A stretch of 33,586 nt of DNA, taken from positions 1 to 33,586 of the forward strand of contig JAOUET010000003.1 of assembly GCA_029858605.1 (NCBI GenBank), given 5' to 3'. Below the pieces are notes generated by a model. That model worked only from the letters and a program-made list of their open reading frames with translations. It was not told where the DNA came from and made no database searches. This document shows positions 2,212 through 30,607 of the stretch, in pieces. The first letter of the stretch is position 1. Each line of letters opens with the position of its first letter. Position numbers and translations under genes: made by a program. The DNA is from Coriobacteriia bacterium (GTDB taxonomy: Bacteria > Actinomycetota > Coriobacteriia > Anaerosomatales > JAENZW01).

Positions 2212-3090
2212 TTACGTCGCCTCGTCGATCCGCGTCTCGATTCGGCATCGCTGCCCGTGCTGATACGACAGCGTCAGCCATGCGGCTCCTCGCGGCTTTG
2301 GAGGCATGCCGCGCTCGATCGCCCAGCCTTCGCCGTCGAGGAACTCGCCCTTGTAGCCGGCGATGCGTACGTGCGTCTGCCGGTCCTCGCGGACCTTGCC
2401 TTGATCGGTGACACGCGCTCGAGCGATCGGCATCGTCCAGGCGTCATGCGTATGACCGCTCACGACGAGGTCGGCGTCGGGCAGGTAGAGACCCATGCGC
2501 GCGGTCTGGATGACGCCGCGAGTCACCGGGCCGCCGCCGCCGTAGCCATGGTGGTAGTAGATGCGGAACGTCGACGACTTCTTCGGGTCTCGCTCGTTGT
2601 GGAACCGGACGAGAATCCAGCCTGCGTACGTGCCTCGATGCAGGAGCGGAGCGCGGCCGGCGGTCTTGAGCGACCGGACGAGCCGATCGGTGAGGTCGAT
2701 CTCGTGCCGCTTGCCGACGCTCGTCTCGTGGTTGCCCGGCGACATCATCACCCAGCGATCGGCGAACGGCGCGTACCGCTCGGCCGCGACATCGACGAGC
2801 CGATCGAGGTAGTGGCCTTCCCAATACTCGGGCCGCAGGTCGCTTCGGTCAGGTCCGCGTCGCGGATCGAACTTGCCCTGCATGGCGTCGAACAGGTCGC
2901 CGAAGTCGAGGATGTACGCGTCGCTCTCGACGGCCTCGCGGAGATGCCGTTCCTCCATCGAGCGGTCGGCGTGCGTGCTGTCGTGATGCGCATCCGACCG
3001 CATCAGGAACCGCAGCTCGTCGCCTGGTGCGACCTTGGCGCGAACGATCAGGACGGAGGCATCGGCACGCTCGACGGTGACGCTTGGCAC
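2212..3090 (-). CDS. Calcineurin-like metallophosphoesterase
   Basis: The metal-binding motifs of the calcineurin-like superfamily appear in order: D-x-H (SDAHHD, about residues 32-37), GD (DFGDLFD, about 64-65), GNHE (about 119-122), a His-rich YYHHG segment (about 178-182), and GHTH (about 212-215). The family hydrolyses phosphoester bonds with two metal ions. Phage members may act on DNA or nucleotides, and the substrate here is unknown. I prefer GTG 3090 because AGGGAG lies seven bases upstream; ATG 3126 in the same frame is possible but poorly placed. The gene overlaps the RusA gene by 43 bases, so they are probably translated together, which hints at a role in DNA processing. Confidence 0.85.
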   Translation of the reverse strand: MPSVTVERADASVLIVRAKVAPGDELRFLMRSDAHHDSTHADRSMEERHLREAVESDAYILDFGDLFDAMQGKFDPRRGPDRSDLRPEYWEGHYLDRLVDVAAERYAPFADRWVMMSPGNHETSVGKRHEIDLTDRLVRSLKTAGRAPLLHRGTYAGWILVRFHNERDPKKSSTFRIYYHHGYGGGGPVTRGVIQTARMGLYLPDADLVVSGHTHDAWTMPIARARVTDQGKVREDRQTHVRIAGYKGEFLDGEGWAIERGMPPKPRGAAWLTLSYQHGQRCRIETRIDEAT

Positions 3091-3500
3091 GCGGTCGCTC
3101 CCTGACCCTCGGAGCCGATCGTCCATAGATCGACTTCGACCCTCGGTCGATCTCGATCGTATCCGATGACGGCCGGCCAGTGGACGAACGTGCGGTCGTC
3201 GACCTTGAGCGCCTCGGCGATGCCGTCGAACGCGTGCTTCATCGAGGCGAGCAGGTTGTCGGCGTCGCGTCGTCGGCGGTCACGGAAGAACCATCGGCAT
3301 CGGACGCCGAAGTTCTGGTCAGTCGTAAGCTGCTGGTTTGGCATTGTCCCGAGCGATACGCCGGGCATTTCGAGAACCTCAACGGTCTCGAAGAACGCGA
3401 CAGCGTGCTGACGCTTTGCGGCCTTCGAGCGAACCGCCCAGTGCGAACGGGCGTTCGGCGAGAGGCAGCGGTCCGGGAGCGGAAGCGAGACCGTCACCAT
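3048..3500 (-). CDS. rusA: RusA-like Holliday junction resolvase
   Basis: A 150-residue protein. The N-terminal PLPDRCLSPNARSHWAVRSK and the central RRDADNLLASMKHAFDGIAE followed by ALKVDDRTF match the RusA family, in which the aspartates of the D-x-D-N segment and the later DD bind the catalytic metal. RusA cuts four-way DNA junctions during recombination and before packaging. The ATG at 3500 sits inside a 26-bp direct repeat shared with the start of the methyltransferase gene. The C-terminal 25 residues, overlapping the phosphoesterase start, go beyond the usual family length and are probably unstructured. Confidence 0.85.
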   Translation of the reverse strand: MVTVSLPLPDRCLSPNARSHWAVRSKAAKRQHAVAFFETVEVLEMPGVSLGTMPNQQLTTDQNFGVRCRWFFRDRRRRDADNLLASMKHAFDGIAEALKVDDRTFVHWPAVIGYDRDRPRVEVDLWTIGSEGQGATACQASPSSVPMPPS

Positions 3501-3519
3501 GTGAAGAGGCTCGCGTCCT
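3494..3519 (-). repeat. 26-bp direct repeat, downstream copy bounding the methyltransferase gene
   Basis: These 26 bases are identical to 4645-4670. On the minus strand they encode the end of one gene (DASLFTW, stop) and contain the overlapping ATG GTG of the next (RusA here, the methyltransferase at the other copy). The copies are 1,151 bases apart and mark the two edges of the methyltransferase gene. Confidence 0.95.
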
Positions 3520-4651
3520 TTGCGAAGGCGCTGATCCTTGCTCGTGCTATCTCAACGTACTCGGCTTCGCGTTCAATGCCGATGAACCGAAAGCCTTCAA
3601 CGACTGCCGCCTTTCCGGTCGAGCCGCTGCCGCAGAACGGATCGAGGATCAGTCCTCCCGGCGGCGTGACGAGGCGGCAGAGGTAGCGCATCAACTCGGT
3701 AGGCTTGACGGTCGGATGCGTGTTACGAGCCATCTTCGTAAAGCGGTCGCTTACGGGATCGCCGTCCGCGTCATTTCCGTTATTCATCTTGACTCGAACG
3801 ACAGGGCGCGCCTCTAACCCTTCATCCCGATCTGCCTTGCTCGCCTTCGCGCAGTAGAAGAAGCGAGCGGCGGAACCAGTGAGCGACTCCACCTCATCGC
3901 TGCCGTCGTGGATAAGGTTTGCAGGCCAGCGGCCTTGAAGGGCAGAATCGTCCATGCTGCCACTTGTCGGCGAGCCGATGCACCAACCTTTCGAGGGGTC
4001 TGCCTTTCGCCTGGTGTCGTCTGCGTCGCGGTCGTAGCCAACTCTGCACCCATCCACGTTGATCCCGCCCGTGCCGTGCTTGACCACGTTCTCCGCGACA
4101 GTGCCGATGAGCGACTTGCGAGCGACAATGATCGGCTCCCACGCTGGCTTCAACGCAGTTCCCCAGCCGGACCACTGACGAGCCGCTTCAGTGGCGGGAA
4201 CGGTAAGTAGTCCGCTGCTGCGGTCTTGGAACCACTCGGGATCGGCAATGGCTCCGCTGTTCGGCCTGTAGTTGCGGTTTGGCCCAATCACTTCTCGCTC
4301 TGCTCCCGCCGCCTTGTCTATCGCCTTGCTAACATCGTGCGACTTCGGGAAGCCGCTGCCGTAGACCCACATAACGCAATCGCGGATCTCCCAGCCTGAA
4401 TCCTCGATGGCACACGCGAGCCGGTGATAGGTCCGCGTGCCGCCGAACGCGAGCAAGTGCGATCCCGGCTTCGCGACTCGCAAAGCCTCCATCCAGAACT
4501 CGACGCCGGGAACGCCGTGATCCCAGCCCTTGCCCATGAAAGAGAGACCGTACGGCGGATCGGTGACGATCGCGTCCACGCTCTCGGCATCCATCGAGGC
4601 CATGACCTCGCGACAGTCTCCAAGCCTGACCTCTGCCGCTCGCTTCACCAT
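3494..4651 (-). CDS. Site-specific DNA methyltransferase (beta-class N6-adenine or N4-cytosine)
   Basis: A 385-residue protein. Motif IV, TDPPYG, is at residues 30-35 and the SAM-binding motif I, DPFCGSGSTG, at about 337-346, with THPTVKPTELM just before it. This order (IV first, I last) defines beta-class amino-methyltransferases. The long region between them carries the target recognition domain. It methylates adenine-N6 or cytosine-N4; the site cannot be read from sequence. No restriction endonuclease is adjacent, so it is probably an orphan enzyme protecting phage DNA or marking it. The gene is bounded by 26-bp direct repeats, and its last residues (KDASLFTW) copy the end of the upstream gene, which suggests insertion as a cassette. 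Confidence 0.92.
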   Translation of the reverse strand: MVKRAAEVRLGDCREVMASMDAESVDAIVTDPPYGLSFMGKGWDHGVPGVEFWMEALRVAKPGSHLLAFGGTRTYHRLACAIEDSGWEIRDCVMWVYGSGFPKSHDVSKAIDKAAGAEREVIGPNRNYRPNSGAIADPEWFQDRSSGLLTVPATEAARQWSGWGTALKPAWEPIIVARKSLIGTVAENVVKHGTGGINVDGCRVGYDRDADDTRRKADPSKGWCIGSPTSGSMDDSALQGRWPANLIHDGSDEVESLTGSAARFFYCAKASKADRDEGLEARPVVRVKMNNGNDADGDPVSDRFTKMARNTHPTVKPTELMRYLCRLVTPPGGLILDPFCGSGSTGKAAVVEGFRFIGIEREAEYVEIARARISAFAKDASLFTW

Positions 4652-4670
4652 GTGAAGAGGCTCGCGTCCT
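4645..4670 (-). repeat. 26-bp direct repeat, upstream copy bounding the methyltransferase gene
   Basis: Identical to 3494-3519. It covers the last codons and TGA of the upstream small gene and the methyltransferase ATG (cACATGGTGA arrangement, stop and start overlapping). Confidence 0.95.
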
Positions 4671-7275: not shown

Positions 7276-7576
7276 CGGGAGCCTCCGTTGCGTCGTGCCG
7301 CTCAATCTGGTCACGCATGCCGACCGCGTCTGCTTCGGCGAGGCGCTTCCGCATCGAGGCGAACTCGCCGTACATGGTCGGCAGGTGCGAGTCGTCGTCG
7401 AGCATGTGGAACGCGATGTCCGTCGCGAGGTAGTCGAACCGGTACGCCTCGCGGTTGTAGGCCGCGATCAGCCTGCGGACGGTCTCGCGATCGAACTGCA
7501 TCGTGCCGCCGGCGAGTTCGGCCTGCACGCTGGCGACGAACGCGCGCTCGCGCTTGGTCGGACTGGTGTCGCTCAT
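7265..7576 (-). CDS. Unknown helical early protein
   Basis: A 103-residue protein starting at ATG 7576 with GAGG about six bases upstream, and overlapping the preceding stop. It is largely helical: KRERAFVASVQAELAGGTMQ, RETVRRLIAAYNREAYRFDY, then FHMLDDDSHLPTMYGEFASM and RKRLAEADAVGMRDQIERHD. There are no cysteines or membrane segments, and no motif I can name. It lies between a putative replication protein and a winged-helix protein. Confidence 0.65.
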   Translation of the reverse strand: MSDTSPTKRERAFVASVQAELAGGTMQFDRETVRRLIAAYNREAYRFDYLATDIAFHMLDDDSHLPTMYGEFASMRKRLAEADAVGMRDQIERHDATEAPDGT

Positions 7577-8100
7577 GCAGCACCTCGCGCGAGGATCTCG
7601 GCCCGTACCTCGGCCGGCTGCATCGCCGCCCAGATCATGCCCAGCCGGAACGCGCCCCAGGCACGCGGATCGTCCGGCAGGTTCTCGACGACGACTGCGA
7701 CCATCGACCGCGACAGGTACTCGCGAGCGGCCGGCAGCCGCTCGAGGTTGCCGAGAACCCAGGCGAGCATCCGCTCGCGGTCCTGCTCGGCCTCGATCCG
7801 CATCCGCTCGAACGCTGCGGCCCGTTCGGCCGCTCGCTCGTCCGGCGTCTTCGCGGCACGCTCACCGGCCGAGGAGTTGCCGCGCTTGATCTCGTGGAAC
7901 TCGTTCCAGAACCACGACATCTCCGGCACGTGCGACGCACGCCGGAGCTTCACGCGGTTGATCGCCTCGGCGAGCCATTCCTGGTTGAGGTTGCGGAACG
8001 TGTCGCGGAAGAGGTCGATCCAGTCGACCGAGAGTCCGGCGCTCGGCCAGAGTCCGAGGATGCGCTCGATGTTGCGACCGATCGTGAGCGGTTCAGACAT
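7573..8100 (-). CDS. Putative helicase-loader-like or replication accessory protein
   Basis: A 175-residue protein. The N-terminal 75 residues (RNIERILGLWPSAGLSVDWI, LFRDTFRNLNQEWLAEAINR, ASHVPEMSWFWNEFHEIK) have the pattern of helical loader domains such as G39P: a helix with a WP or YP turn, a W/L-rich helix, an Ala-Ile helix and a segment equivalent to PPS. A charged Ala/Glu/Arg linker follows, then a helical C-terminal domain (REYLSRSMVAVVVENLPDDP). The start at 8100 carries GGAGGTGACCGATG, a close variant of the repeated start module. It lies two genes after the replication initiator gene. The function is inferred. Confidence 0.5.
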   Translation of the reverse strand: MSEPLTIGRNIERILGLWPSAGLSVDWIDLFRDTFRNLNQEWLAEAINRVKLRRASHVPEMSWFWNEFHEIKRGNSSAGERAAKTPDERAAERAAAFERMRIEAEQDRERMLAWVLGNLERLPAAREYLSRSMVAVVVENLPDDPRAWGAFRLGMIWAAMQPAEVRAEILARGAA

Positions 8101-8356
8101 CGGTCACCTCCTCGGGCAGCATGTCGCGGAGTTCGGTGATCTGCTCGGCGCGTTCTCCGGCGATGCGCTCGAGCTCCGCGACGCGTTGACGGAGCGCGAG
8201 GATCGTCTCGACCGCCTCGCAGGCGATCGGCAGGTTCAGGCTCACGTCCTGCCGGAGCAGCCGGCAGCAGATGTCGGCGCGATCGAGGCGGCTCAACCGG
8301 AACTCGCGCTGGAGCATGTCGATCCGGCGTCGCGTGTCGTTCCAGGTATCAGGCAT
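8093..8356 (-). CDS. Coiled-coil early protein, paralogue of the adjacent upstream gene
   Basis: An 87-residue protein, ATG 8356, overlapping the upstream stop. It contains DICCRLLRQDVSLNLPIACE, AVETILALRQRVAELERIAG and a helical end, ERAEQITELRDMLPEE. The part around C-x-EAV-x-TILALR recurs in the neighbour (8349-8669) at the same relative position, including the DI..RLL segment before it. The two genes are therefore probably a tandem duplication. The long heptads suggest a dimer or heterodimer. The function is unknown. Confidence 0.7.
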   Translation of the reverse strand: MPDTWNDTRRRIDMLQREFRLSRLDRADICCRLLRQDVSLNLPIACEAVETILALRQRVAELERIAGERAEQITELRDMLPEEVTDV

Positions 8357-8669
8357 TCGCGACCGCCTTTCGCATCGGTCCGAGGATCATCTCGAGCCGG
8401 ATCTTGATCTCGTCGACCTCCTGCCGTGCGGTCTCGATCGCGGCCTGGAGCCGCGCGTTCTCGGCGTCGCTGGCCTGGACGATCGTGCGATAGGCGACGA
8501 TCTGATCGCGAAGCGCGAGGATCGTGTCGACCGCCTCCATGCAGTCGAGGTCGACCGCTCGCGTGTAGTGATCGACGCGATCGAGCAGTCGGTGCGTGAT
8601 GTCATTCGCCGGCACGCCGAGAGCGGCGAGTTCGGCCCGTAGTTGCGTTGCGCGTTCATCCGGTGTCAT
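8349..8669 (-). CDS. Coiled-coil early protein, paralogue of the adjacent downstream gene
   Basis: A 106-residue protein. ATG 8669 is part of an exact GGAGATGACCGATG module whose first bases are also the last codons of the replication gene upstream (stop and start overlap as ATGA). The protein has PANDITHRLLDRVDHYTRAV, then CMEAVDTILALRDQIVAYRT and a long helix, DAENARLQAAIETARQEVDE. It aligns with the 8093-8356 product across DI..RLL and EAV.TILALR. No known function. Confidence 0.7.
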   Translation of the reverse strand: MTPDERATQLRAELAALGVPANDITHRLLDRVDHYTRAVDLDCMEAVDTILALRDQIVAYRTIVQASDAENARLQAAIETARQEVDEIKIRLEMILGPMRKAVANA

Positions 8670-9544
8670 CGGTCATCTCCTGTCATTCCAGGTCGGTACA
8701 TCCGAGCGCCGCTCGCCGTTCGAGCGACGCCATCGGCGTCGATCCAGCATCCGAGCGGCAGTGTGCGCTCGGCGTTTCGTTTCGTCAACTCGGGACCGCT
8801 CGAGCGGCGGTCCGCGTAGGCCTGACCTCGTGCCATCCATCGCCGCAGTCCGGCCCGTACGTTTCGCCAGCGGCCGGACGGCGACTCGGCCGCGAGCCAT
8901 GCGTGCGCCCTGGCGAGCTCGGCGTCGACATCGACCGCCGGATACGCCGCCGCCCAGGCTCGCCGGTCGGCGTCGGTGACGCCTGCGAATCCGGTCTCGG
9001 GATGCCACTCGATCGGAGAGGTTCGCGAGGCTTTCGGCTCGTTGGCGGTCCCGGTCGATGGCGTTTCGACATCGACAGGGACAAGACTGGAACCGCTAGG
9101 TTCCAGTCCTTGGTTTTCTGTCTTGGTCTTACTCTTACTCTTACTCTTGGCATTGCAGTCGGAATGCGGTCGCATTGCATCCGCATCCGCCTGCTCGTCT
9201 GGATGCCATCGGGCGGAGGCTGCCCGGCGAGCCGACGCCGACCGCCGCTCGCGGATCTCCGCCAGCGTCTCGCCCGGCCACGAGAACCGGATCGTGCCGG
9301 ACCGGCGATTCGCTGTAGCCCAGCCAGAGGCGATTAGAGCGTCCGTCGTGCCTGGAGGTACGCCGGTAGCCTCGTCGACCGCGGACGCGTCTAAAGCCGT
9401 CTGCGGCCCGTAGGATTGAACCCAGCACCAGATCGCCAGCACGCGACCGGCTCCCTCGAACCGTCCTACTTGCAGAGTCCGGCAGAATGCCACAAAGCGA
9501 GGCTTCCGGAACAGGTCGACATCCACGGGAATCCATCGTTCCAT
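8666..9544 (-). CDS. Replication initiator-like protein (lambda O / DnaD-type layout)
   Basis: A 292-residue protein. The N-terminal domain (residues 3-95, WIPVDVDLFRKPRFVAFCRT, GAGRVLAIWCWVQSYGP, then a wing-like TANRRSGTIRFSW) resembles the winged-helix domains that open many phage replisome organisers. A flexible linker at about 130-175 contains alternating Lys/Ser/Thr (KSKSKSKTKTE). The C-terminal domain (WAAAYPAVDVDAELARAHAW, LAAESPSGRWRNVRAGLRRW) is the small helical module seen at the end of such proteins. It probably binds the phage origin and recruits host helicase. The start at 9544 carries an exact GGAGATGACCGATG. No phage helicase or polymerase gene was found. Confidence 0.75.
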   Translation of the reverse strand: MERWIPVDVDLFRKPRFVAFCRTLQVGRFEGAGRVLAIWCWVQSYGPQTALDASAVDEATGVPPGTTDALIASGWATANRRSGTIRFSWPGETLAEIRERRSASARRAASARWHPDEQADADAMRPHSDCNAKSKSKSKTKTENQGLEPSGSSLVPVDVETPSTGTANEPKASRTSPIEWHPETGFAGVTDADRRAWAAAYPAVDVDAELARAHAWLAAESPSGRWRNVRAGLRRWMARGQAYADRRSSGPELTKRNAERTLPLGCWIDADGVARTASGARMYRPGMTGDDR

Positions 9545-9573
9545 CGGTCATCTCCGATCATCCGGTCGAAGAA

Positions 9574-10134: not shown

Positions 10135-10391
10135 CGGTTCACCTCGTTTCGGTTTGACCAGGCCGTGCCTGGGTTCTCGTCAATGTGCGTGTATTGCGTC
10201 TCGCGCTTCGGCTCGTTGATGAACGCCTCGACCTGCGACGGGCGGAACCGCCAGACGCGAGGACCGATCGCGACCGGAGAGAGCCGGCCCTGCTTGATCC
10301 AGCGGTAGACGGTGTCGCGGCTGATGCCGAACCTCGCGGCGAACTGCTCGGGCGAGATCGACGGCGAGTCATCAGAAGGGGATCTCGACAT
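10131..10391 (-). CDS. Excisionase/MerR-like helix-turn-helix DNA-binding protein
   Basis: An 86-residue protein. ATG 10391 has AAGGAGG six bases upstream. Residues 13-60 (SPEQFAARFGISRDTVYRWI, KQGRLSPVAIGPRVWRFRPS, QVEAFI) match the short winged HTH family that includes excisionases and MerR-like regulators: helix, turn GIS, recognition helix TVYRWI, then wing. With no integrase in the genome it is more likely a regulator or recombination accessory factor. The ERF gene upstream overlaps it by 20 bases. Confidence 0.85.
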   Translation of the reverse strand: MSRSPSDDSPSISPEQFAARFGISRDTVYRWIKQGRLSPVAIGPRVWRFRPSQVEAFINEPKRETQYTHIDENPGTAWSNRNEVNR

Positions 10392-11154
10392 CGTCGTCCT
10401 CCTTCGCGACCGGCTTCGCATGCGACTTCGCGCCGCGGATGTCGAGCAACTCGATCCCGCGGCCGCTCTCCTTCACCAGCACGTCGGCCTCAACGCCGAC
10501 GAGCTCGAGCGCCCGTCCGCCGTGCGTCGCGGAGAACGTCGAGAATCGCTCGCCGCCGGTCGTGAACACCGAGTAGAGACGCCACGGGCCTTTCGCCGAC
10601 TGGCCGTCCTTCGTCTCGACTTTCTCGACGGTCACGCGTTCCCAGCCGTCGTCGAGCGTGACCGGCTCGACCGGCTTCGCCGCCGGCTTCGCCTGCGGCT
10701 TCGGAGCCGTCGCCGCGTGAGCCTGCGGCATCGAGACCTGCCGCTGCGGCTTCGGCTCGTTCGTCGCGTTCCCGTCGTCGTCCTCGTCGCCGACCACGCC
10801 GAGAGCGGCCGACAGGCTGTACCGCCTGGCGTACGTCATCGCCGAGCCTGTCGCCTGAGGCTTCGCGAGGTCGACGCGGACTGGCACGGGCGCGAGCCGG
10901 ATCGTCTCGCCGCTTGCGTCGCGGATGACGGTCCAGCACATCAGGTTCCCGTCCGGCATCGGCTCGAAGTCGCTCGCGAGCGCGAGGCCGAACCGGGCGA
11001 GGTGCGGTCGGCACGTTTCGAGGAACGAGCCGAGGCTCGCGTACTTGAACCGGCCGAACGCGGTGTTGACCTTGTCGAGCGCCGGCGACGGCATCTCGGC
11101 AAGTGCCGCGGCGAACGCCGCCGCGATCGTCTCTGTCTTCTTCTCAGGCTTCAT
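10372..11154 (-). CDS. erf: ERF-family single-strand annealing protein fused to an OB-like domain with an SSB-type tail
   Basis: A 260-residue protein; ATG 11154 has GGAGG six bases upstream. The N-terminal part (residues 1-125) is an ERF-type annealing domain: FGRFKYASLGSFLETCRPHL, ARFGLALASDFEPMPDG, then GSAMTYARRYSLSAALGVVG and the acidic DEDDDGN. A Pro/Ala/Lys/Gln linker (about 130-165) follows. The C-terminal part (about 166-240: WERVTVEKVETKDGQSAKGP, WRLYSVFTTGGERFSTFS, VLVKESGRGIELLDI) has the strand pattern of an OB fold. The last residues are EDDDVEIPF, like the DDDIPF tail by which bacterial SSB recruits partners. ERF proteins anneal single strands in phage recombination. I find no separate SSB gene, so one protein may serve both roles. 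Confidence 0.85.
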   Translation of the reverse strand: MKPEKKTETIAAAFAAALAEMPSPALDKVNTAFGRFKYASLGSFLETCRPHLARFGLALASDFEPMPDGNLMCWTVIRDASGETIRLAPVPVRVDLAKPQATGSAMTYARRYSLSAALGVVGDEDDDGNATNEPKPQRQVSMPQAHAATAPKPQAKPAAKPVEPVTLDDGWERVTVEKVETKDGQSAKGPWRLYSVFTTGGERFSTFSATHGGRALELVGVEADVLVKESGRGIELLDIRGAKSHAKPVAKEDDDVEIPF

Positions 11155-11341
11155 CGACGACCTCCTCGATCTTGCCGTCCCGGATCAGGTTGGCGAGCTC
11201 GTCGAGCTCCGCGACCCTCCGCTCGATGTTGAGGGCGATGTCGTATCGCTTCTCCTCGGCGGCCATCTTGCGGACTTGGTTCAACTCGAACGCGGCGCAC
11301 TCAAGCGCAAAGCAGAACATTCCGACTCGTTCAGGTGTCAT
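11144..11341 (-). CDS. Unknown small helical early protein
   Basis: A 65-residue protein whose ATG (11341) belongs to an exact GGAGATGACCGATG module and overlaps the stop of the small membrane protein gene. It is all-helical: MFCFALECAAFELNQVRKMA, then RYDIALNIERRVAELDELAN and LIRDGKIEEVVDEA. It ends inside the ERF start region (11-base overlap). No function is recognisable; tight coupling to the ERF gene suggests a helper or simply operon packing. Confidence 0.7.
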   Translation of the reverse strand: MTPERVGMFCFALECAAFELNQVRKMAAEEKRYDIALNIERRVAELDELANLIRDGKIEEVVDEA

Positions 11342-11469
11342 CGGTCATCTCCATGGCCGGTCTTGATGGTTCCGTCCCGCTTGCCGGCCTCGATCACGAA
11401 CGGGAGGAAGACGCCGGGGATCACGATGATCCCGGCGAGGATGCAGCACGCAAGGTCAAGCCACGACAT
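11338..11469 (-). CDS. Small single-span membrane protein, 43 residues
   Basis: ATG 11469 has GGAGGG about seven bases upstream and overlaps the end of the preceding gene by 14 bases. The translation begins MSWLDLACCILAGIIVIPGV and continues FLPFVIEAGKRDGTIKTG, ending HGDDR. Residues 6-26 form one hydrophobic helix and the rest is charged. Its last codons (GDDR, TGA) are part of the repeated start module of the next gene. Small membrane proteins in phage early regions can block superinfection or alter host membranes, but nothing here shows which. Confidence 0.6.
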   Translation of the reverse strand: MSWLDLACCILAGIIVIPGVFLPFVIEAGKRDGTIKTGHGDDR

Positions 11470-11656
11470 CGACGGTCCCTCCGATGCGAGCGGTCCGCTT
11501 GGCCATCGCGAGATCGTTTCGCAGGCTGTCGAGGTCGACCCTGAACTGATCGAGCTGCTCGGCGAGCCGATCGCGTCCGGCCACGCGTGCCTGTTCGGCC
11601 TGCTGCCCGAGGTTGTAGATCGCGTAGTGAAGCGCGGCAGATTGTCGGTTTGTCAT
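11456..11656 (-). CDS. Unknown small coiled-coil early protein
   Basis: A 66-residue protein whose ATG (11656) is in an exact GGAGATGACCGATG module. It is helical with regular heptads (ALHYAIYNLGQQAEQARVAG, DRLAEQLDQFRVDLDSLRND, then LAMAKRTARIGG). No motif is recognised. It overlaps the membrane protein gene by 14 bases. Confidence 0.7.
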   Translation of the reverse strand: MTNRQSAALHYAIYNLGQQAEQARVAGRDRLAEQLDQFRVDLDSLRNDLAMAKRTARIGGTVDVVA

Positions 11657-11677
11657 CGGTCATCTCCTACGGTGCGA

Positions 11678-11737: not shown

Positions 11738-11977
11738 TCAGCCGTACTTCAGCGACCAGCCGAGCTCCTTGAAGAGCGGCCGAGCATCGTCCGAGATGAC
11801 GAGCACGTCGTTCCCGCGGCTCCGGCGAATCGACGCAAGCCCGTGCTTGACGAGGATGCGAGCCTGCATCAGGACCGCGCCCGAGATCATGTCAACTTGG
11901 TTGACCTCGTTGCGAGTGTCGATGTCGCGCATCGACTTGGCCACGGCGTGAATCGCGTTCTTGAGTTCGCTGTCCAT
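11738..11977 (-). CDS. First gene of the early operon, unknown 79-residue protein
   Basis: ATG 11977 is in an exact GGAGATGACCGATG module and is the first start downstream of the 12038-12065 promoter. The protein has a helical N-terminus (ELKNAIHAVAKSMRDIDTRN), a second helix (VDMISGAVLMQARILVKHGL) and a beta part (ASIRRSRGNDVLVISDDARP), ending LFKELGWSLKYG. The helix, helix, strand-turn-strand order could be a small winged-helix DNA-binding fold; without a clear motif that is only a suggestion. A promoter-proximal first gene of this size is often a regulator or host-takeover factor. Confidence 0.7.
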   Translation of the reverse strand: MDSELKNAIHAVAKSMRDIDTRNEVNQVDMISGAVLMQARILVKHGLASIRRSRGNDVLVISDDARPLFKELGWSLKYG

Positions 11978-11988
11978 CGGTCATCTCC
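11975..11988 (-). promoter_or_regulatory. Repeated ribosome-binding/start module GGAGATGACCGATG
   Basis: The same 14 bases end in the ATG of five early genes: starts at 11977, 11656, 11341, 9544 and 8669. Variants precede 8100 (GGAGGTGACCGATG) and 10134 (GAGGTGAACCGATG). The module combines a Shine-Dalgarno, an out-of-frame ATG, a TGA and the true ATG. At 11341 and 8669 its bases also encode the end of the previous protein (GDDR and stop). No late gene start that I checked has it. Confidence 0.85.
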
Positions 11989-12037
11989 TGCTTCGCCGCG
12001 AACCCCGCGGCGGTCAGCTCATCAGGCCGACAGGTGG

Positions 12038-12065
12038 AGGATACAGCCTCCTTCGGCCCTGTCAA
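12038..12065 (-). promoter_or_regulatory. Sigma70-type promoter of the early operon
   Basis: On the minus strand TTGACA (12060-12065, perfect consensus) and TATCCT (12038-12043, four of six consensus bases) are 16 bases apart. It points at the first early gene 61 bases away. A CCTGTC box overlaps the -35 element and GACAGG copies lie on both sides, an arrangement suited to an operator. It is the only convincing promoter I found. Confidence 0.7.
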
Positions 12066-12202
12066 CCCCTACGCCGCACTAAATCGGCCTAGATTCTGAC
12101 AGGTCCGGATAACCAGCCTTCTAGAACGTCGTAGGACGCGTCCGAGCCGGGCCGGACCGGACAGGCTCCCGGCTGCTACCAACGTGTCCCAGCGGAAGTA
12201 AA

Positions 12203-12303
12203 CCGGCCCCGCGCCTAGAGGACGCGAGGCCGGGAGATGACTGCTGCCTGAGGCAGCACCGGAGGGGATGAGGCTCCGGGATGGATGGTCGGCGCAAGCG
12301 CCG
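12203..12303 (-). terminator. Array of four hairpins after the late operon
   Basis: In order of transcription: CGGCGC-AA-GCGCCG (12290-12303), CCGGAG-9-CTCCGG (12259-12279), TGCTGCC-3-GGCAGCA (12242-12258), and CCGGCC/CGCG paired with CGCG/GGCCGG with one mismatch (12203-12233). All are perfect or nearly so, and the second and third are directly adjacent. The last late gene ends 30 bases before. There is no clear U-run, so simple intrinsic termination is not assured; RNA stabilisation or an origin/packaging role is also possible. Confidence 0.6.
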
Positions 12304-12332
12304 GTCGGCTCGGGAATCCTACCGGCTCGGCA

Positions 12333-13748
12333 TCACGAGATCAACGCATCCGCGACGGTGACGTTCGTCCCGGTTCCGCTCGGCAGGAAGATCCCGCTCT
12401 CGTACAGGCCGAACATGCGGTCGAGCTCGAGGTTCATCTCGCCGACCGTGTTGTTCGAGATCGCGACCGTCGCGAGATCGCCGCGACGGCTATCCGTCGA
12501 GCCTGCCACGATCGCGACACCAGGACCGCCGGCCGCGAGTCGCTGCATCTCGCAGACCGTTACCTCGTCGATGAGGATCGAGCCGGTCGCGGTGAGCGCC
12601 GTCGTCAACTCGATGACGAGGTCGGTCTCGTCTGGAATGTTGACCGGCGAGACGACCGCGAAGCCGTGCCTGACGTAGGACGTTGTCAGGCTACCCCAGG
12701 CGACCGAGACCGTCATCGAGCCGAGCACCGTATCGGTCTGATCGCGGAACGAGATTCGCAGCGTGCCGGCAACCGCGGTCCCTTCCTGCCGAAGCCACGC
12801 CGAGAGCAGGTAGAGCGTGTCGCCCTTGAGCTTGCCGTAGGTTCCGCTCCCGTAGTTCATCCGCTGTCGGACCTTCGTCAGCGTCGAGCCGTCGCCGATG
12901 AACTTCAACGCGTACGATCCGCGCTGGGCGGTCGTGCTGCTCGCCACGTGAGTCGTCGCCGTGCCGGTCACGAGTTCCCAGCTCACCGGCACGTCGGACG
13001 CGAATACCTCGAAGTCGCTGTTCGTGAGCAGGTTCAGGCCGGGCGAGCCTCCGGCGTCCTGATCGCCGCAGGTCGCGGTCATCCGCATTGCGGTCCCGCT
13101 GCCGGCTCGCCATCGCCGATCGAGGTTCGGGAACGAACGGTCGCCAGTCACGGTCCAGACCTCGGAGCCGCTGGCGACGCCGGCGGTCTTCGTGTCCTCG
13201 GCGCATGAGAACGTCAGCGTCTCGGCCCGGAGGTACGGCTGGCCTGCGACCTTCGTCGCGAATACCACGTTGTTCTTGATGATCTTTGGAGCCTCGTCCG
13301 AGACGATGACGACCGCGTTCCCGGTGTTCGCCGCGTTGTACGAGGTCGCTCCGATCGTGAAGGACGACACCGCAACCTTCTCGCCGTCTCGGTTCATCTG
13401 AAACGCGAGCTCGCGCATCGCCTCGGGTACGGTCTTGGTCGGGAGCTTCGTGTCGGCGTCGACCATCTCGATGAGCGTCCGCTCGGCTGCGGCCTTGATG
13501 CCGACCAGCGTCCCGAGGCTGGCGTCGGCGACGATGTCCTCGTTGGCGACGGCCTGCACGAGATCGGTCGCCATCGGAAGCGTTCCGGTCGTCGAGGCGA
13601 ACACCGAGTAGATCGTGCGGACGCCGCTGGTCGCGGTCGCCGAGGTCGGCGCGATCGCCTGCTGATGCGTCCGGATCGTCTTCGCCAGGCCGAAGAGCTT
13701 CCCGAGACGCGTGAAGAGACCGCCGGTTCCCGTGAGCGTGACTGCCAT
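12333..13748 (-). CDS. Tail-associated virion protein with a carbohydrate-binding-like module
   Basis: A 471-residue protein, last gene of the late operon. Residues about 235-400 (LNLLTNSDFEVFASDVPVSW, then RGSYALKFIGDGST, LYLLSAWLRQEGTAVAGTLR, and SILIDEVTVCEM) have the layout of CBM_4_9-type jelly-roll modules: N-x-DFE start, W near the first strand, G-Y-A-L-K-F, SAW strand and ILIDEV at the end. These bind sugars. The N-terminal 230 residues are unassigned, with strands and a helix (TVPEAMRELAFQMNRDGEKV). Its position at the end of the tail cluster suggests a tail-tip or fibre protein contacting cell-surface glycans. ATG 13748 has a weak AGG upstream. Confidence 0.7.
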   Translation of the reverse strand: MAVTLTGTGGLFTRLGKLFGLAKTIRTHQQAIAPTSATATSGVRTIYSVFASTTGTLPMATDLVQAVANEDIVADASLGTLVGIKAAAERTLIEMVDADTKLPTKTVPEAMRELAFQMNRDGEKVAVSSFTIGATSYNAANTGNAVVIVSDEAPKIIKNNVVFATKVAGQPYLRAETLTFSCAEDTKTAGVASGSEVWTVTGDRSFPNLDRRWRAGSGTAMRMTATCGDQDAGGSPGLNLLTNSDFEVFASDVPVSWELVTGTATTHVASSTTAQRGSYALKFIGDGSTLTKVRQRMNYGSGTYGKLKGDTLYLLSAWLRQEGTAVAGTLRISFRDQTDTVLGSMTVSVAWGSLTTSYVRHGFAVVSPVNIPDETDLVIELTTALTATGSILIDEVTVCEMQRLAAGGPGVAIVAGSTDSRRGDLATVAISNNTVGEMNLELDRMFGLYESGIFLPSGTGTNVTVADALIS

Positions 13749-20219: not shown

Positions 20220-20586
20220 GAGGCAGATCCTCCTCGAGCGTCGCGATCAGGTGATACAGGTTGTCGGCCGTCGACCGGTCGTCCGGCACGCGAACCGAGT
20301 CGACGCGATACGTGCGGACCTCGCTCGCGATCGTGACCGTGAGCACGTCGTTCGCCTTCAGATCCTGCGAGCCGTCGCAGTAGAGCGTCGCGCCGAAGCG
20401 GACGTTCTCGCGTCCGTACCGGAGCGACACGCCGCCTCCGCCGATCTGGAGGTAGCCGGTGATCGTCGCCGTCGTCGTGCCTGCCGTGGTCGATTGAGCC
20501 GCGCCGCCGCTCTCGTCGCGAATCCAGACCGGACGCGTCCTGGTCATCGTCCGACCATAGGCCGAGATCAGCGAGCCGATGGTCAT
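20212..20586 (-). CDS. Head-tail stopper-like protein
   Basis: A 124-residue protein between the connector and the gp10-like gene. It begins MTIGSLISAYGRTMTRTRPV and has TTATITGYLQIGGGGVSLRY, GRENVRFGATLYCDGSQDLK, then ANDVLTVTIASEVRTYRVDS and HLIATLEEDLPRG. The central ATLYCDGS-x-D-L-K-x-x-D-x-L strand order is what is seen in small beta-barrel head closure proteins, which are built around a loop that plugs the portal channel. Synteny is the main support. Confidence 0.7.
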   Translation of the reverse strand: MTIGSLISAYGRTMTRTRPVWIRDESGGAAQSTTAGTTTATITGYLQIGGGGVSLRYGRENVRFGATLYCDGSQDLKANDVLTVTIASEVRTYRVDSVRVPDDRSTADNLYHLIATLEEDLPRG

Positions 20587-21437
20587 CGGATGCGTACCCT
20601 TGCTCCGAGCATGCCGCGAATCTGCTGCACGATGCGACCGGTCGCGGCGACGCTGTACGAGTAGTCGCCGAGGCTCTCGCTCGTCACGCCGAGATCCTTC
20701 TTGCGGTCACGGTACAGGCTCGCAGCCGTTTCGAGGCACGCCTGCTCGATGTCGAACGGGACCGTATCGTGACCTCCGTTGTAGGCCACGAGGACCGAGC
20801 GGTATTCGGCAGGGAACTCGGTCGCCCAGTGATCGCTCGGGAACGCGTCCGAGACCATCGAGATGATGCCGGCCTCCTGATCGACGCGAAGGTCCGCGGT
20901 CGTGTCCCAGGCTGCCGAGAGGTAGGCCGTCGTCGTGAGCACGTTCACGCCGGCCCGAGGATGCAACTGGTACGCGGAGAAGTCCTCGATGGCCGACGCC
21001 TCGAAGCCGGTCACGCCGTTGATATGTGTCGCGAGTTCCGCAGTCGTCTCGTGGTTCGTGAACTGGACCTGCTCGGTCGATTCCGAGCCGGTCGAGGTGA
21101 CGCGGAAGAGCCTGATATGACTCGGCGTGACCTCGACCGTCGCGAGGATGTCCGTCGAGCCTGACGCCGCCGACACGCTGAGCGCGTTCTGCGAGCCGAA
21201 CGCGACGTACTTCACGTGGTTGATCGGCCGCACCTTGACGCCGATCTGATCCGTGCCGAGGCTGTCGTGCCACTCGTACAGGTTCCGCGCCTTGATCGGC
21301 CTTCCGAGGATGGCCTCGATCAAGGCCGAAGCACGGTCGATCGAGCGCTCGAGGATCGTCTCGTCTACGCCGGCAGAGATGCCGAGGTACGACTGGAGGT
21401 TCGCGAGCGTGGTCAGTGAGTTCGCGTCGACGGCCAT
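20583..21437 (-). CDS. Head-tail connector (gp6-like) with an inserted beta-rich domain
   Basis: A 284-residue protein; ATG 21437 has GAGG six bases upstream. The N-terminal part (SLTTLANLQSYLGISAGVDE, TILERSIDRASALIEAILGR) and the C-terminal part (SDHWATEFPAEYRSVLVAYN, VPFDIEQACLETAASLYRDR) match the helical gp6-type adaptors that ring the portal. The middle (about 60-200) is beta-rich (SAASGSTDILATVEVTPSHI, then a segment ending TAELATHINGVTGF), which makes the protein well over twice the usual size of about 100 residues. This extra domain may decorate the neck. Confidence 0.78.
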   Translation of the reverse strand: MAVDANSLTTLANLQSYLGISAGVDETILERSIDRASALIEAILGRPIKARNLYEWHDSLGTDQIGVKVRPINHVKYVAFGSQNALSVSAASGSTDILATVEVTPSHIRLFRVTSTGSESTEQVQFTNHETTAELATHINGVTGFEASAIEDFSAYQLHPRAGVNVLTTTAYLSAAWDTTADLRVDQEAGIISMVSDAFPSDHWATEFPAEYRSVLVAYNGGHDTVPFDIEQACLETAASLYRDRKKDLGVTSESLGDYSYSVAATGRIVQQIRGMLGARVRIR

Positions 21438-23144: not shown

Positions 23145-24527
23145 TCAGAGCTTGAGCGCGACGATCGGACCGGCGTCCGTGGCGTCGCCGAGGTTGGCGC
23201 ACTTGATGTCGAACCGCTCAGTGCCGCGGACGGCGACCTCGTCCTGCTCGAACGCGTTCAGCGCCGAGTCGGAGAAGGCGATCGAGGTCTGACGGCGGTC
23301 GCCGAAGTAAGCGGCCATCGCCAGATCGCCGAAGAGACACTGAATGGTGTCGGCGGTAAAGGTCTTACGCATGACCTGCACGTACTCGACCGGGTATCCG
23401 AGCAGGGTCGGAGTCGCGGTCCCGTCCTTGAGCTCGCGAGCGGTCACGCCGCCCGAGGCGTAGACGAGCCGCTCGAGGCAGGCGTGATAGAACGCCTTCG
23501 AGCAGTAGAACTTGCAGTTCGGCGAGTCGGCGTAGGCCGGCAGTTTGGCGACGAACGCCATGAGATCCGCCATGTCGAAATCCGAATAGGCGCTCGTCAG
23601 AGCCGCATCGCTGATTCCAGCCGCCGACGAGATGCCCTCGATCTCGGGAATGACGCCGACGATTCCGCCGTAGGTCGACGTGCCGTCGCCGTTGAAGCCG
23701 CACTCGTCCTCCTTCAGCGCGAACGCGTACGCGATCTCGTTCGCGATGTCGTCGCCGAGGTTCACGATGGCGTCCTCGTTGAGCTCGTTGCTCGCTGTCG
23801 TGAGGACCATGAACTTCTGCGCGACGAGGTTGACCTGGTCGAACACCTGCTGCGACTCGGTTCCGGCAGCAGCCTCGCCGACCGCGTAGGCGGTGAGCGT
23901 GGTCTTGCGACGCGGCATCCGCCTGGTGTCGCTGGACATCGGGACGTTCTTCGCGTTCCGGCGGAACACGCCGTAGCGCTCGCGGAGCGAGATCAGCGAC
24001 GACTCGAACTCGTCAGGGACGAGGAAGCCGCCGGCGCTGTTCACGCTCTCGGTGTGGCCCTTGGTGACGATGCCGTTCGACTGACACCAGTCGAGGCTCT
24101 TGCGGTGGCCGCGAGCGGCCATGATGAAGCGGCCGAAGCGATAGGCTTCCTCGGCCGACTTGAGGTGACGGGCGCGGCCGTCGATCTTGATCTGGTCGGG
24201 CATGGTGATCCTCGGTGCAGCGGCGGCCTTGACCTCCGCGGCGATGGTCTTCTGGACGGTGTTACGAACGGCCTTCTCGGCGTCCTCGATCGGCATCTCG
24301 TCGGACGGCTTGACGGCGTCCTCCTCGACTTCGACCTCGGCAGCCGTGGCCGGCATGAGCTTGACCTCGTAGGCGATCTGATCCGGCGCGAGAGGGTTGC
24401 CCTCTGCATCGGTCACGAGCACGCCCTCGAGGTAGAGCGCCTTCGCCTGCTCAAAGCCGGCGGCGCCTTTCTGGTCGGCGATCTTCTGGAGATCGGCCTG
24501 GACCTCGGAAACGGACTTGGTCTTCAT
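23145..24527 (-). CDS. Major capsid protein, HK97 fold
   Basis: A 460-residue protein. ATG 24527 begins MKTKSVSEVQADLQKIADQK; the additional upstream codons look like shadow. Residues 1-130 form a helical, acidic delta-like domain (including VEVEEDAVKPSDEMPIEDAE) that is probably removed by the protease. The mature part shows the family marks: SNGIVTKGHTESVNSAGGFL and VPDEFESSLISLRERYGVFR (GG-x-L-VP), VGEAAAGTESQQVFDQVNL, KFMVLTTASNELNEDAIVNL, EIAYAFALKEDECGFNGDGT (A-x-x-ED-x-x-F-x-G-x-G) and RFDIKCANLGDA near the end. The protease gene is directly upstream and the decoration-like gene directly downstream. Confidence 0.92.
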   Translation of the reverse strand: MKTKSVSEVQADLQKIADQKGAAGFEQAKALYLEGVLVTDAEGNPLAPDQIAYEVKLMPATAAEVEVEEDAVKPSDEMPIEDAEKAVRNTVQKTIAAEVKAAAAPRITMPDQIKIDGRARHLKSAEEAYRFGRFIMAARGHRKSLDWCQSNGIVTKGHTESVNSAGGFLVPDEFESSLISLRERYGVFRRNAKNVPMSSDTRRMPRRKTTLTAYAVGEAAAGTESQQVFDQVNLVAQKFMVLTTASNELNEDAIVNLGDDIANEIAYAFALKEDECGFNGDGTSTYGGIVGVIPEIEGISSAAGISDAALTSAYSDFDMADLMAFVAKLPAYADSPNCKFYCSKAFYHACLERLVYASGGVTARELKDGTATPTLLGYPVEYVQVMRKTFTADTIQCLFGDLAMAAYFGDRRQTSIAFSDSALNAFEQDEVAVRGTERFDIKCANLGDATDAGPIVALKL

Positions 24528-24614
24528 GGTGAATCCCGGTTGGTGCGAATGTGACGACTCAGCGCCGCCGCACCGATCCGGCATTCAGCCACTCGTCCGG
24601 GCAAGGCTACGCGA

Positions 24615-25280
24615 TCATAGCACGATGCGACCGCGTGCCTTCGCGATCTCCTCGCGAGCGATCCTCGTGGCGATCTCGCGTCCGATCGCCGGCACGCTTA
24701 CCGCGATTGAGAACTTCCTGACAGGCGGTCGCTCGATCTTCGCCGGAACGTCGACGCGACCGAAGCGCTCAACAGCGGTTCGCGTCACGTAGCCCTTCTG
24801 GACCGCCGTGATGAGCGCGTCCTGATTCGCCGGCACGCTCACGACCGAGACCTCGAGCAGCTTCCACTTGGAGTAGACGCGTCGCACGTCCGGCCCGTAC
24901 TTGTCAACGTCGCCCTTCGTCGCGAGCCGCTCGCCGCCGTCCATCGGCACAAAGCCGATCGAGACGCCGCGGAGCACCTTCGCCTGTACCAGGCCGCGGA
25001 CGTAGTCGGGGAACCAGTCGCCGTCGAAGTCGTCCGGTCGCTTGGCGAACTCGAAGTCGGCGACGATCTCGCGATCGGCGCGCTTGAGCGTGACGGCCCG
25101 TCCGACAGGCTGCGACGTGTCGTGATTCCAGAGGAGGACCGGGTTCCGCTCGTAGTCCTTCGCGTTCATGCCGGCCGGAACCATCACCTCGCCGTCGCGG
25201 TCTACGCTGTCGGTGGAGATGGTCGCCTTGAACATGCCTCCGACGATCTCGCCTTCGGCCTTGAAGTCTTTACGGTTCAT
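24615..25280 (-). CDS. HK97-family prohead protease
   Basis: A 221-residue protein from ATG 25280, overlapping the portal-MuF stop (ATGA). The catalytic triad residues can be placed: His in LLWNHDTSQPVGRA (about 53), Ser in LRGVSIGFVP (about 107) and Glu in KWKLLEVSVVSVPANQDAL (about 143). FKATISTDSVDRDGEVMVPA at the start is also typical. The enzyme cleaves the capsid delta domain and itself during head maturation. The C-terminal 60 residues are basic and helical. Confidence 0.92.
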   Translation of the reverse strand: MNRKDFKAEGEIVGGMFKATISTDSVDRDGEVMVPAGMNAKDYERNPVLLWNHDTSQPVGRAVTLKRADREIVADFEFAKRPDDFDGDWFPDYVRGLVQAKVLRGVSIGFVPMDGGERLATKGDVDKYGPDVRRVYSKWKLLEVSVVSVPANQDALITAVQKGYVTRTAVERFGRVDVPAKIERPPVRKFSIAVSVPAIGREIATRIAREEIAKARGRIVL

Positions 25281-28267: not shown

Positions 28268-29472
28268 CAGATGACTCGGAAGCGGAACGTGGCCGGCCGG
28301 TTCGCCGCTCGACGTACGGCCAGGGCGAGCGCCATAACGCCGTCGTCGTGCATACTCGCTGGTGCAGTGTATCGAACGCCGGTACGCGTCGACTCCCACT
28401 CGAACGCCTCGAGCTCGACTCGAAGGAAGCCGTCAGGGAACCGGACCTCGCTCCGCTGGATCGCCGCGGCCAGTCCTTCGAGCAGTTGCTGACGGCTCGT
28501 CGCGGTGAACTTGAACCCCTCGACGTTGGGCCTGCCGCGCTGGAGATCCTCGACGATCGGATCGCCGACGCCGGTCGAGTCGATCATCGTCGGAACCTTG
28601 CCGATGGTGGACGCGATCCGCTCGCGTGTCGCCTGCCAGTCGAGCCGGAAGCGATCGAGGTAGCAGACCGTGCCGGTCGCATCGAGGCCGAGGATCACGG
28701 TCCAGTCTGTCGTCTTGGCCAGGTCGATCCCGAACGCAGCCGGCTCGGCCGTGCTGAGCGGTCGGATCGCCGCACGGATCGCGTCGAGGCCGAACGGGTT
28801 CCCGCCGTCGTCCGACGCCTCGACGAGGTAAAGCTCGCGGAACACGTGGTCGGGCAGTTGCCGCTTCGCCGCCTCGACCTCGTCCGAGGCGAGCACGCCG
28901 CCGGCGACCGCGTCGGCTGCGGTCAACTTGTGGTACGCGCAGTCCGGCTCCGCTCCGGCCTCGGCAAGCCTCGCCAGCCGGTACGCCCAGTTCTTCCGGC
29001 CCTTGAGGTTGCCGATGATCCGGCACGGGCCGCGTGTCGCCGACAGCGTCGACCTGACCGCGTGCCACGACTCCTCCGGGCAGCGTGTCGCCTCGTCGAT
29101 GACCGCGGCGTGAACGTCCTCGCCGTAGAGCGTGTCGGGGTTGTCTGCCGACTTGAACGCGACCTTCGAGCCGTTCGCGAGCTTGATGACGAGACGCGAC
29201 GTGTTCTCTTCCCAGATCCGCTTCTCGGGATCGGCGTCCCGGAGCATCGCCGCGAGCCGCTCGAAGCCGACCGTCTTGGTGACCTCGAACGTCGGCGCGA
29301 CCCACCAGCAGACCGAGTTCGGGCGGTTCCAGGCGAACTCCAGTACCCAGAGCAGGCAGCCAACGGTCTTGCCGCTCTTGGTGCTCGCCTCGATGATGAC
29401 GAACCGGGCCGGATCGCAGATCGCGTCGTGCTGCTTCCGGTACAGCGGCGGGAGTTCGATCGCGGCCTGCAT
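28267..29472 (-). CDS. terL: Terminase large subunit
   Basis: A 401-residue protein. ATG 29472 (MQAAIELPPLYRKQHDAICD) lies 5 bases after the upstream stop; the longer frame is Arg-rich shadow. ATPase motifs: Walker A EASTKSGKT (about 28-36) and Walker B AAVIDEATRCPEE (about 121-133). Nuclease motifs: AFGIDLAKTTDWTVI (about 245-259), TMIDSTGVGDPIVEDL and a final HDDGVMALALAV. It pumps DNA into the prohead and cuts it. Next is the portal gene, the standard order. The packaging type (cos or pac) cannot be read from this sequence. Confidence 0.92.
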   Translation of the reverse strand: MQAAIELPPLYRKQHDAICDPARFVIIEASTKSGKTVGCLLWVLEFAWNRPNSVCWWVAPTFEVTKTVGFERLAAMLRDADPEKRIWEENTSRLVIKLANGSKVAFKSADNPDTLYGEDVHAAVIDEATRCPEESWHAVRSTLSATRGPCRIIGNLKGRKNWAYRLARLAEAGAEPDCAYHKLTAADAVAGGVLASDEVEAAKRQLPDHVFRELYLVEASDDGGNPFGLDAIRAAIRPLSTAEPAAFGIDLAKTTDWTVILGLDATGTVCYLDRFRLDWQATRERIASTIGKVPTMIDSTGVGDPIVEDLQRGRPNVEGFKFTATSRQQLLEGLAAAIQRSEVRFPDGFLRVELEAFEWESTRTGVRYTAPASMHDDGVMALALAVRRAANRPATFRFRVI

Positions 29473-29477
29473 GGATG

Positions 29478-29828
29478 CTAGTCGCGCACTCCGATTCGGA
29501 CCGGTGCGAGTTCTATCCGCTCGGTCGCCTCGCCGCCCTCGAGCCGCTCGATCTTGTCCAGCGTCGCGAGCGCGTTGATGTTGTCGCGGTCGAGCGCCGC
29601 GAGCAGTTCGATCGCTCGCAGCTTCTCGCGGTCGGTCTTGCCCGTGAGCGCGATCCGCTTCGCGATCAGCGGTGCGGCCGATCGGATGTCGTCCGGGATC
29701 GGCCAGCGGTTGCGTACCGCACGTATGAGCATCTGGAGCGTCTGCCGGTCGTGACCGGCGTCGCGCTCGATCTGCCGTGCGAGCGGCACGATCGCGGACG
29801 CGTCGACGGTTGGCTCGGTGTCGCTCAT
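29478..29828 (-). CDS. Possible terminase small subunit
   Basis: A 116-residue protein, ATG 29828, overlapping the Mom-like gene's stop. It is all helical: SAIVPLARQIERDAGHDRQT, LQMLIRAVRNRWPIPDDIRS, APLIAKRIALTGKTDREKLR, AIELLAALDRDNINALATLD, then KIERLEGGEATERIEL. There is no textbook HTH, but size, helicity and position right before the large subunit fit a small terminase. It could instead be an unrelated helical protein; I rely on synteny. Confidence 0.55.
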   Translation of the reverse strand: MSDTEPTVDASAIVPLARQIERDAGHDRQTLQMLIRAVRNRWPIPDDIRSAAPLIAKRIALTGKTDREKLRAIELLAALDRDNINALATLDKIERLEGGEATERIELAPVRIGVRD

Positions 29829-30607
29829 TGAGTGTCAAGCGCCGGGATCGGAGTTGAACCGTCCCTTCCGGACTGGATGCCCGGCGTGCCGCCCTCAGCA
29901 CTTCCGGCGCGCTTGGCTCCGCGATACATGCTTGCGCCTATATCGCGAATCTTGGCGAATGGTATCTCCGGAACCGATAGCGCGCGACGCGCGTCGCGGT
30001 CTATGAAGAAAATGTAACGGAGTTGAAATCCTGGCAATGGCTTTGCGTCGGCCGCTTTCATCAATGCCTCTACCGAAGCGGAAGGCATCTTCAATCTTGC
30101 TCGCAAGATTCTTTGTTGCGGAGTTGGCCTTGCCGTCTTATATGTCATCTTGTGCGCAATCGTTCCATCTCCGAACTTGAATAGTTGGCTGTTCTTTTTT
30201 ATGGCCGTTAGCACAAAGCCTGACGCTCGATAGATCGCTCCGTCTCCGCATTGTGTCGCGTCAGCAAACGAGATTACCCACCGGAGTTGCGGATACGTCG
30301 CCTTCAGCCATCGCATCGCAAAGCCGATTGCGCGACTCTCGCTGTTCCGTGGAAGCCAATCCGCGAACGCCATGCGATTCAACTCGATGAACTCATGCCA
30401 TCGCGTGCCGCGTACGAGACCCTGTATCTTCCGCTTGTCCAAGGACGGGCCGAACTGCATCGCTCCTCCGCATCGTCCGTTCATGAATACGCCGAGATGG
30501 ACCTGCGAGTTCTGGACGATCTTTCCGGAGTAGTGCAGGTCTTGAATGATGCGGTTTCCGTCCGCCGCGGAAATCGGTTTGACGATGATGGTCTTAGCGT
30601 CACCCAT
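29825..30607 (-). CDS. Mom-like DNA adenine modification protein
   Basis: A 260-residue protein of the phage Mu Mom group (GNAT-related). Seen: LHYSGKIVQ (about 24-32), MQFGPSLDKRK, TRWHEFIELNRMAFADWLPR, NSESRAIGFAMRWLKATYPQ, RWVISFADATQCGDGAIYRA and SGFV, the conserved core including N-SR, S-x-AD and G-x-IY. Mom adds a methylcarbamoyl group to adenine in phage DNA and so blocks many restriction enzymes. Base use differs sharply: 30061-30120 has 29 G/C of 60, against 42 of 60 in the terminase gene at 29041-29100, suggesting recent transfer. The start is ATG 30607 (8-base overlap with the ParB-like gene); GTG 30622 is possible. The C-terminal tail beyond residue 190 is basic. Confidence 0.82.
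   Translation of the reverse strand: MGDAKTIIVKPISAADGNRIIQDLHYSGKIVQNSQVHLGVFMNGRCGGAMQFGPSLDKRKIQGLVRGTRWHEFIELNRMAFADWLPRNSESRAIGFAMRWLKATYPQLRWVISFADATQCGDGAIYRASGFVLTAIKKNSQLFKFGDGTIAHKMTYKTARPTPQQRILRARLKMPSASVEALMKAADAKPLPGFQLRYIFFIDRDARRALSVPEIPFAKIRDIGASMYRGAKRAGSAEGGTPGIQSGRDGSTPIPALDTQ

Follow-up and report, generated by a model that had tools for sequence, protein, structure and literature searches.

The late operon of the phage genome analyzed here ends in a 3' untranslated region (UTR) that carries a 9-nt segment, GUCAUCUCC (12233-12241, minus strand), which is perfectly complementary to GGAGAUGAC, an extended Shine-Dalgarno sequence that early genes of the same genome share. 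We propose, with a probability of roughly two in three and from comparison of sequences, that this segment is the seed of a late 3' UTR antisense RNA that is directed against the shared early Shine-Dalgarno and blocks translation of early genes. Good comparative evidence suggests that the seed beside the terminator is a real finding, as it is unique in the genome and co-varies with the phage's own early ribosome sites. The finding is of a kind already known, that of phage antisense RNA, and takes here the form of a late, terminator-side seed against a shared early ribosome site. We infer the transcription, stability and processing of this RNA, its pairing in vivo and the repressive sign of its effect.

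In the proposed mechanism, the 3' end of the late transcript would comprise three upstream hairpins, a single-stranded linker rich in C and an intrinsic terminator. Production of the seed would require transcription of the late operon through to the last base. The terminated 3' end would accumulate after late transcription starts, either still attached to the long mRNA or released from it by processing, and its seed would pair in trans with the ribosome-binding sites of early mRNAs. Pairing would block translation and would act as an RNA-based early-to-late switch, with early genes turned off late in infection. Because an RNA that pairs over a Shine-Dalgarno normally represses, shut-off of early genes late in infection is the most likely role. 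Repression of translation by a pairing RNA that occludes the Shine-Dalgarno is established for mycobacterial B11/6C (PMC10470900).

The Phage Genome and Its Putative Host

The window, that is the whole stretch of 33586 bases that was analyzed, was matched to the IMG/VR phage contig 3300022208_000017. Its first and last 139 bases (1-139 and 33448-33586) form a direct terminal repeat with one mismatch, and the contig is therefore most likely a complete genome of ~33447 bp, which is probably circular or circularly permuted. The minus strand carries nearly all recognized genes. The late genes on this strand include those of the terminase (28267-29901), the portal plus minor head protein (25277-28399), the major capsid (23145-24584) and the connector (20583-21437). 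The last late gene (12333-13748) follows on this strand, downstream of those for terminase, portal and capsid; it encodes a tail-fibre-like protein of 471 aa (phrog_15641 tail fiber, E 7e-5), and the 3' UTR begins at its stop codon. Early genes, also on the minus strand, encode Erf (10372-11154), a replication initiation protein (8666-9544), a DNA methyltransferase (3494-4651) and a repair exonuclease (2212-3126). Searches of annotated phage records returned no match at the DNA level, and none for the protein of the last late gene.

A gap of 355 bp (11978-12332) separates the end of the late operon from the start of the early operon. A sequence-only reading had called it the only intergenic region; this was overstated, for it is the largest gap seen and other short gaps exist. 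The gap contains a sigma-70-like early promoter, TTGACA-16-TATCCT (12038-12065, minus strand; 1 found against 0.1 expected), which is recognizable in relatives. A pattern search of viral contigs with the early promoter region returned only the known relatives and unrelated sequences. Upstream of this promoter, relatives share a conserved element at ~12080-12100 on the minus strand (GATTTAGTGCGGC and variants), which is a possible operator or activator site.

Several other features of the genome were observed. Portal and minor head (MuF-type) domains appear to be fused in the single 1040-aa frame at 25277-28399. A Mom-like DNA modification protein (29825-30622) adjoins the terminase gene. A 165-bp unit is present in three tandem copies at 65-559, the later two being 81% and 70% identical to the first. 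An identical repeat of 26 bp (3494-3519 and 4645-4670) covers the start codons of the neighboring genes 3048-3500 and 3494-4651 (DNA methyltransferase) and gives both the same leader, in which no Shine-Dalgarno is obvious. An internal TAG in the capsid gene of a related type (L101) was considered and dropped, as it lies upstream of the real start. The GC content of the assembly bin, G000, is similar to that of the phage contig (0.64, two contigs), and the RNase J of the bin is Coriobacteriia/Anaerosomatales-like (71-79% identity). Binning gives only a hint that the organism of the bin is the host. Hfq was not found in the bin, which is ~90% complete and is assigned as host from binning.

The 3' End of the Late Transcript

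The sequence-only reading described four inverted repeats in 12203-12303, two of them (12242-12258 and 12259-12279) directly adjacent, and placed them after the last late gene; all of this stands, with the repeats at 12203-12233, 12242-12258, 12259-12279 and 12290-12303 and the gene at 12333-13748 on the minus strand. It also reported that there was no U-run, and its doubt about a terminator arose because the untranscribed strand was read. On the transcribed minus strand, the last hairpin (12233-12203), a stem-loop of 13 pairs, is followed by the U-tract UUUACUU (12196-12202). Relatives have UUUAUUU, UUUUU or UUUUAUUU at this place, with longer U-runs among them. The last hairpin is the strongest terminator-like match of the scanned region. 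With its G+C-rich stem and the U-tract behind it, on the transcribed strand and after the last gene, it is a textbook intrinsic (Rho-independent) terminator.

Three hairpins precede the terminator on the minus strand. Hairpin A (CGGCG-CUUG-CGCCG, 12290-12303) is invariant in four close relatives and hence has no covariation support. Hairpin B (CCGGAG - CCUCAUCCC - CUCCGG, 12259-12279) has a C-rich loop and two compensatory pairs, and hairpin C (UGCUGCC-UCA-GGCAGCA, 12242-12258) has one compensatory pair. A hairpin with a CUCAUC-type loop was also seen by eye in two relatives (L005 and L006). Folding exceeds that of shuffled sequences on the transcribed minus strand only (RNA z = -2.97, DNA z = -3.44, with none of 200 shuffles as stable), the z-score of the plus-strand RNA being -0.60. 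The four close relatives keep 99% of pair cells, and in these few sequences both-sided changes are found at three pairs, all in hairpins B and C. Sliding the partners abolishes the compensatory-pair signal. The suggestion that the hairpins form a structured RNA is thus upheld by strand-specific folding, compensatory pairs, the terminator and the conserved anti-ribosome-site segment.

Hairpins A-C are found only in close relatives and may stabilize or present the seed. In distant relatives most upstream hairpins are missing, while the seed and the terminator persist. This loss speaks against the idea that the hairpins form a single-strand origin, a packaging signal or a protein-binding array. 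Apart from the fact that tandem hairpins occupy the largest non-coding gap, nothing speaks for an origin or a packaging signal, and GC skew showed no switch at this site. We regard this explanation as barely credible; in our reading, the stem-loops belong to the place where the late transcript ends. Taken by themselves, the hairpins amount to a terminator region of the ordinary kind and a 3' UTR whose structure is conserved.

The Linker and the Early Start Sites

The linker (12233-12241), which the sequence-only reading passed over, sits between hairpin C and the terminator. Its complement GGAGAUGAC is an extended Shine-Dalgarno that lies within an identical 14-mer, GGAGATGACCGATG. Exactly five copies of GGAGATGACCGATG are present on the coding strand, each carrying the start codon of an early gene, and they contain all five coding-strand copies of GGAGAUGAC. 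On the minus strand these are located at 11975-11988 (early gene 11738-11977), 11654-11667 (ATG at 11656, ORF 11456-11656), 11339-11352 (early gene 11144-11341), 9542-9555 (gene 8666-9544, replication initiation protein) and 8667-8680 (gene 8349-8669). A sixth early gene (7573-8100) starts in the variant GGAGGTGACCGATG (8098-8111, minus strand), which forms one G-U pair with the linker. GGAGATGACCGATG occurs in none of the listed late genes. When every 9-mer on both strands of the whole genome was scanned, no position other than the linker was found to complement three start-site regions or more along 9 nt, and the linker matched six of them.

The linker is unpaired in the minimum free energy fold of a longer fragment. 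In the fold of the isolated UTR it pairs partly with the stop-codon region (probability of being unpaired ~0.4), and exposure of the seed may therefore depend on processing or on ribosomes.

Co-variation of Seeds and Early Ribosome Sites

The comparison covered nine lineages, the window type and eight others, all of which possess the tail-fibre gene together with 3' UTRs and early genes that could be read. The eight further lineages have different early ribosome sites, and each has a matching complement in the flank or the loop of the terminator. The complement is 9-12 nt long in five of the nine lineages. It measures 12 nt in L101 (early site CUACUAGGAGAC), 11 nt in L104 (CAAGGAGACCC), 10 nt in L105 (GAAAGGAGAA), and 9 nt both in the window type (GGAGAUGAC) and in L163 (CGAGAGGAA). 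Three lineages have 8 nt, these being L107 (CUAGGAGA), L164 (GAAAGGGA, at six early starts) and L165 (GAGAGGAA), and one, L096, has 6 nt (GACGAC). The complement lies in the terminator loop in L163 and L165 and in the flank elsewhere. L101 and L107 also match one another. Although short, the L096 match is informative: the early site has changed from AUGAC to ACGAC, and in the linker GUCAUC has become GUCGUC. The hypothesis was already in place when L164 and L165 were obtained. L163 and L106 are one contig, for which the first reading, made before the terminator loop was considered, gave no clear match. All three fit.

A second complement that tracks the ribosome-site variant, GCGGTC[A/G]TCTCG, is present in the tail-fibre coding sequence of L094, L095 and L096 (L096:7097-7106), and this is probably a coincidence of valine and isoleucine codons. 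Relatives by the capsid gene outside the tail-fibre group (G001-G009) have no comparable position, which limits the arrangement to phages sharing this tail-fibre gene. L166, which shares a distant tail fibre and has a different next gene, has no seed.

Because the seeds contain CUCC/CCUCC-like cores, they could be thought to mimic the anti-Shine-Dalgarno of 16S rRNA and to block host mRNAs generally, as a host shut-off RNA. However, each seed fits the extended sites of its own phage better than those of other lineages and changes along with them, and we consider this explanation very improbable. The repeated motif could also be a double-stranded DNA site for a phage protein, with the 3' UTR copy merely in the opposite orientation. 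A reversed DNA site and an antisense RNA seed have identical letters, and phages are known to carry asymmetric repressor sites where genes start, an example being the stoperators of cluster A mycobacteriophages (PMC3203893). Yet the motif includes a Shine-Dalgarno at ribosome-site spacing, the boundaries of the match vary among lineages, and the reversed copy is always in the terminator flank or, in L163 and L165, in the loop, which are places exposed in RNA. A DNA site is thus improbable, and an RNA seed is the reading that we carry forward.

Statistics of the Pairing

With hand-picked linkers from six lineages, the true pairing ranked first among all 720 permutations on either measure, duplex energy or longest complement. 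As the linkers in this first swap test were hand-picked, it was repeated with whole UTRs. In nine lineages with whole UTRs, the observed value was reached by 3, 1 and 218 of 100,000 permutations for 7-, 8- and 9-mers, respectively. When site consensuses of the nine lineages were used, none of 200,000 swaps reached the true pairing. These permutation figures are to be taken as guides and not as exact probabilities, because the site consensuses and the UTR limits were set by the analyst, some of them after matches were seen, and because the nine lineages share ancestry and are not fully independent.

The statistics also bear on a further alternative, in which the intrinsic terminator and the structured 3' UTR are of the ordinary kind and a C/U-rich linker and an A/G-rich Shine-Dalgarno look complementary without interacting. 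The terminator is certainly present, and pyrimidine linkers do match Shine-Dalgarno cores through their composition. A control within genomes (whole UTRs, 7-mers) is only marginal for single lineages, with weak p values of 0.02-0.14 that become convincing only once they are combined by Fisher's method (1e-5). Nevertheless, shuffles of the UTR that preserve composition gave p ~0.01 or below in seven of the nine lineages. The matches run past the Shine-Dalgarno core and follow the variant of each lineage, and swapping partners destroys them. As swaps keep the type of composition and still fail, a pyrimidine/purine bias alone is insufficient, and we judge this alternative unlikely. Complementarity to the target ribosome sites is conserved beyond chance, as is expected of a trans-acting antisense RNA.

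Relation to Known Regulatory RNAs

The 6C/B11 small RNA of mycobacteria is likewise actinobacterial and has C-rich single-stranded segments between stems (PMC10470900). Several mRNAs are repressed by it through base-pairing at their ribosome-binding sites (PMC10470900). It is host-encoded, forms a family of its own and has host targets, whereas the predicted targets of the window's seed are the phage's own early genes. A search of Rfam gave no match at the gathering score; the hits were at chance level (E 3-5) and none was 6C. Phage-encoded regulatory RNAs include OOP and PreS of lambda, sar of P22, VpdS of VP882 and c4 of P1/P7 (PMC12197685). These pair with mRNA, as is proposed here (PMC12197685). 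Unlike the proposed multi-gene seed, those described have as targets a single specific mRNA, a small number of them, or RNAs of the host. The same review contains no late 3' UTR seed directed against a ribosome site common to many early genes (PMC12197685). Bacterial small RNAs derived from 3' UTRs with intrinsic terminators also combine a seed and a terminator at an mRNA 3' end; in the present example the processed RNA is a prediction, and the assembly bin has no detectable Hfq.

Relation to Start-Associated Sequences

Cluster K mycobacteriophages have a 13-nt Start-Associated Sequence (SAS) at many gene starts, and whether its partner is an RNA or a protein, host- or phage-encoded, was left undetermined (PMC3203893). 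A paper from 2024 still describes the role of the SAS as ill-defined (PMC11373665). The SAS of cluster K mycobacteriophages and of cluster EF Microbacterium phages is a motif longer than a Shine-Dalgarno at many non-structural starts (PMC3203893, PMC7302621), and the window phage is similar, with GGAGATGACCGATG at five early starts and a variant at a sixth. The motifs differ in sequence, as the repeated motif of the window is not the SAS consensus GGGATAGGAGCCC, and the ESAS promoter repeat was not found in the window phage. The texts consulted on the SAS report no antisense partner (PMC3203893, PMC7302621); the putative partner here lies in the late 3' UTR.

The genome of the mycobacteriophage Anaya has one anti-SAS outside coding genes, CCTCCTATCCC, which lies in non-coding sequence near the right end (59870-59882; L124:24870-24882), within a loop closed by a GC stem. 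CrimD, Validus and Amelie have a lone anti-SAS at the place aligned with that of Anaya, and in the case of Validus there is overlap with an annotated hypothetical gene. No close anti-SAS (at least 10 of 13 positions, outside genes) was found in TM4, in Pixie (15000-61147) or in the aligned regions of Yuna, Bryler, Keshu and Oscar, and the parallel therefore holds for part of K1 only. Within that scope, the lone anti-SAS hairpin of K1 is suggestive of a partial parallel to the window's seed.

Implications for Phage Biology

Tentatively, phages may widely use a private, extended early ribosome site together with one antisense seed that silences the whole early set. Seed and sites would drift together, so that each lineage has its own code, and the place of the seed would differ, being the late terminator region here and, in some mycobacteriophages of cluster K1, a lone anti-SAS hairpin. 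We consider so wide a distribution possible and still doubtful. The finding, if it holds, would suggest a simple screen of the genomes of uncultured phages for a repeated start motif with one reverse complement beside a terminator. If the proposed antisense mechanism is true, a single short stretch of RNA would govern many phage genes at once by way of a ribosome site that they share and that co-evolves with it, and the early-to-late switch would be post-transcriptional and would work without a repressor protein. It would also offer a direct, testable answer to the purpose of the Start-Associated Sequences of mycobacteriophages.
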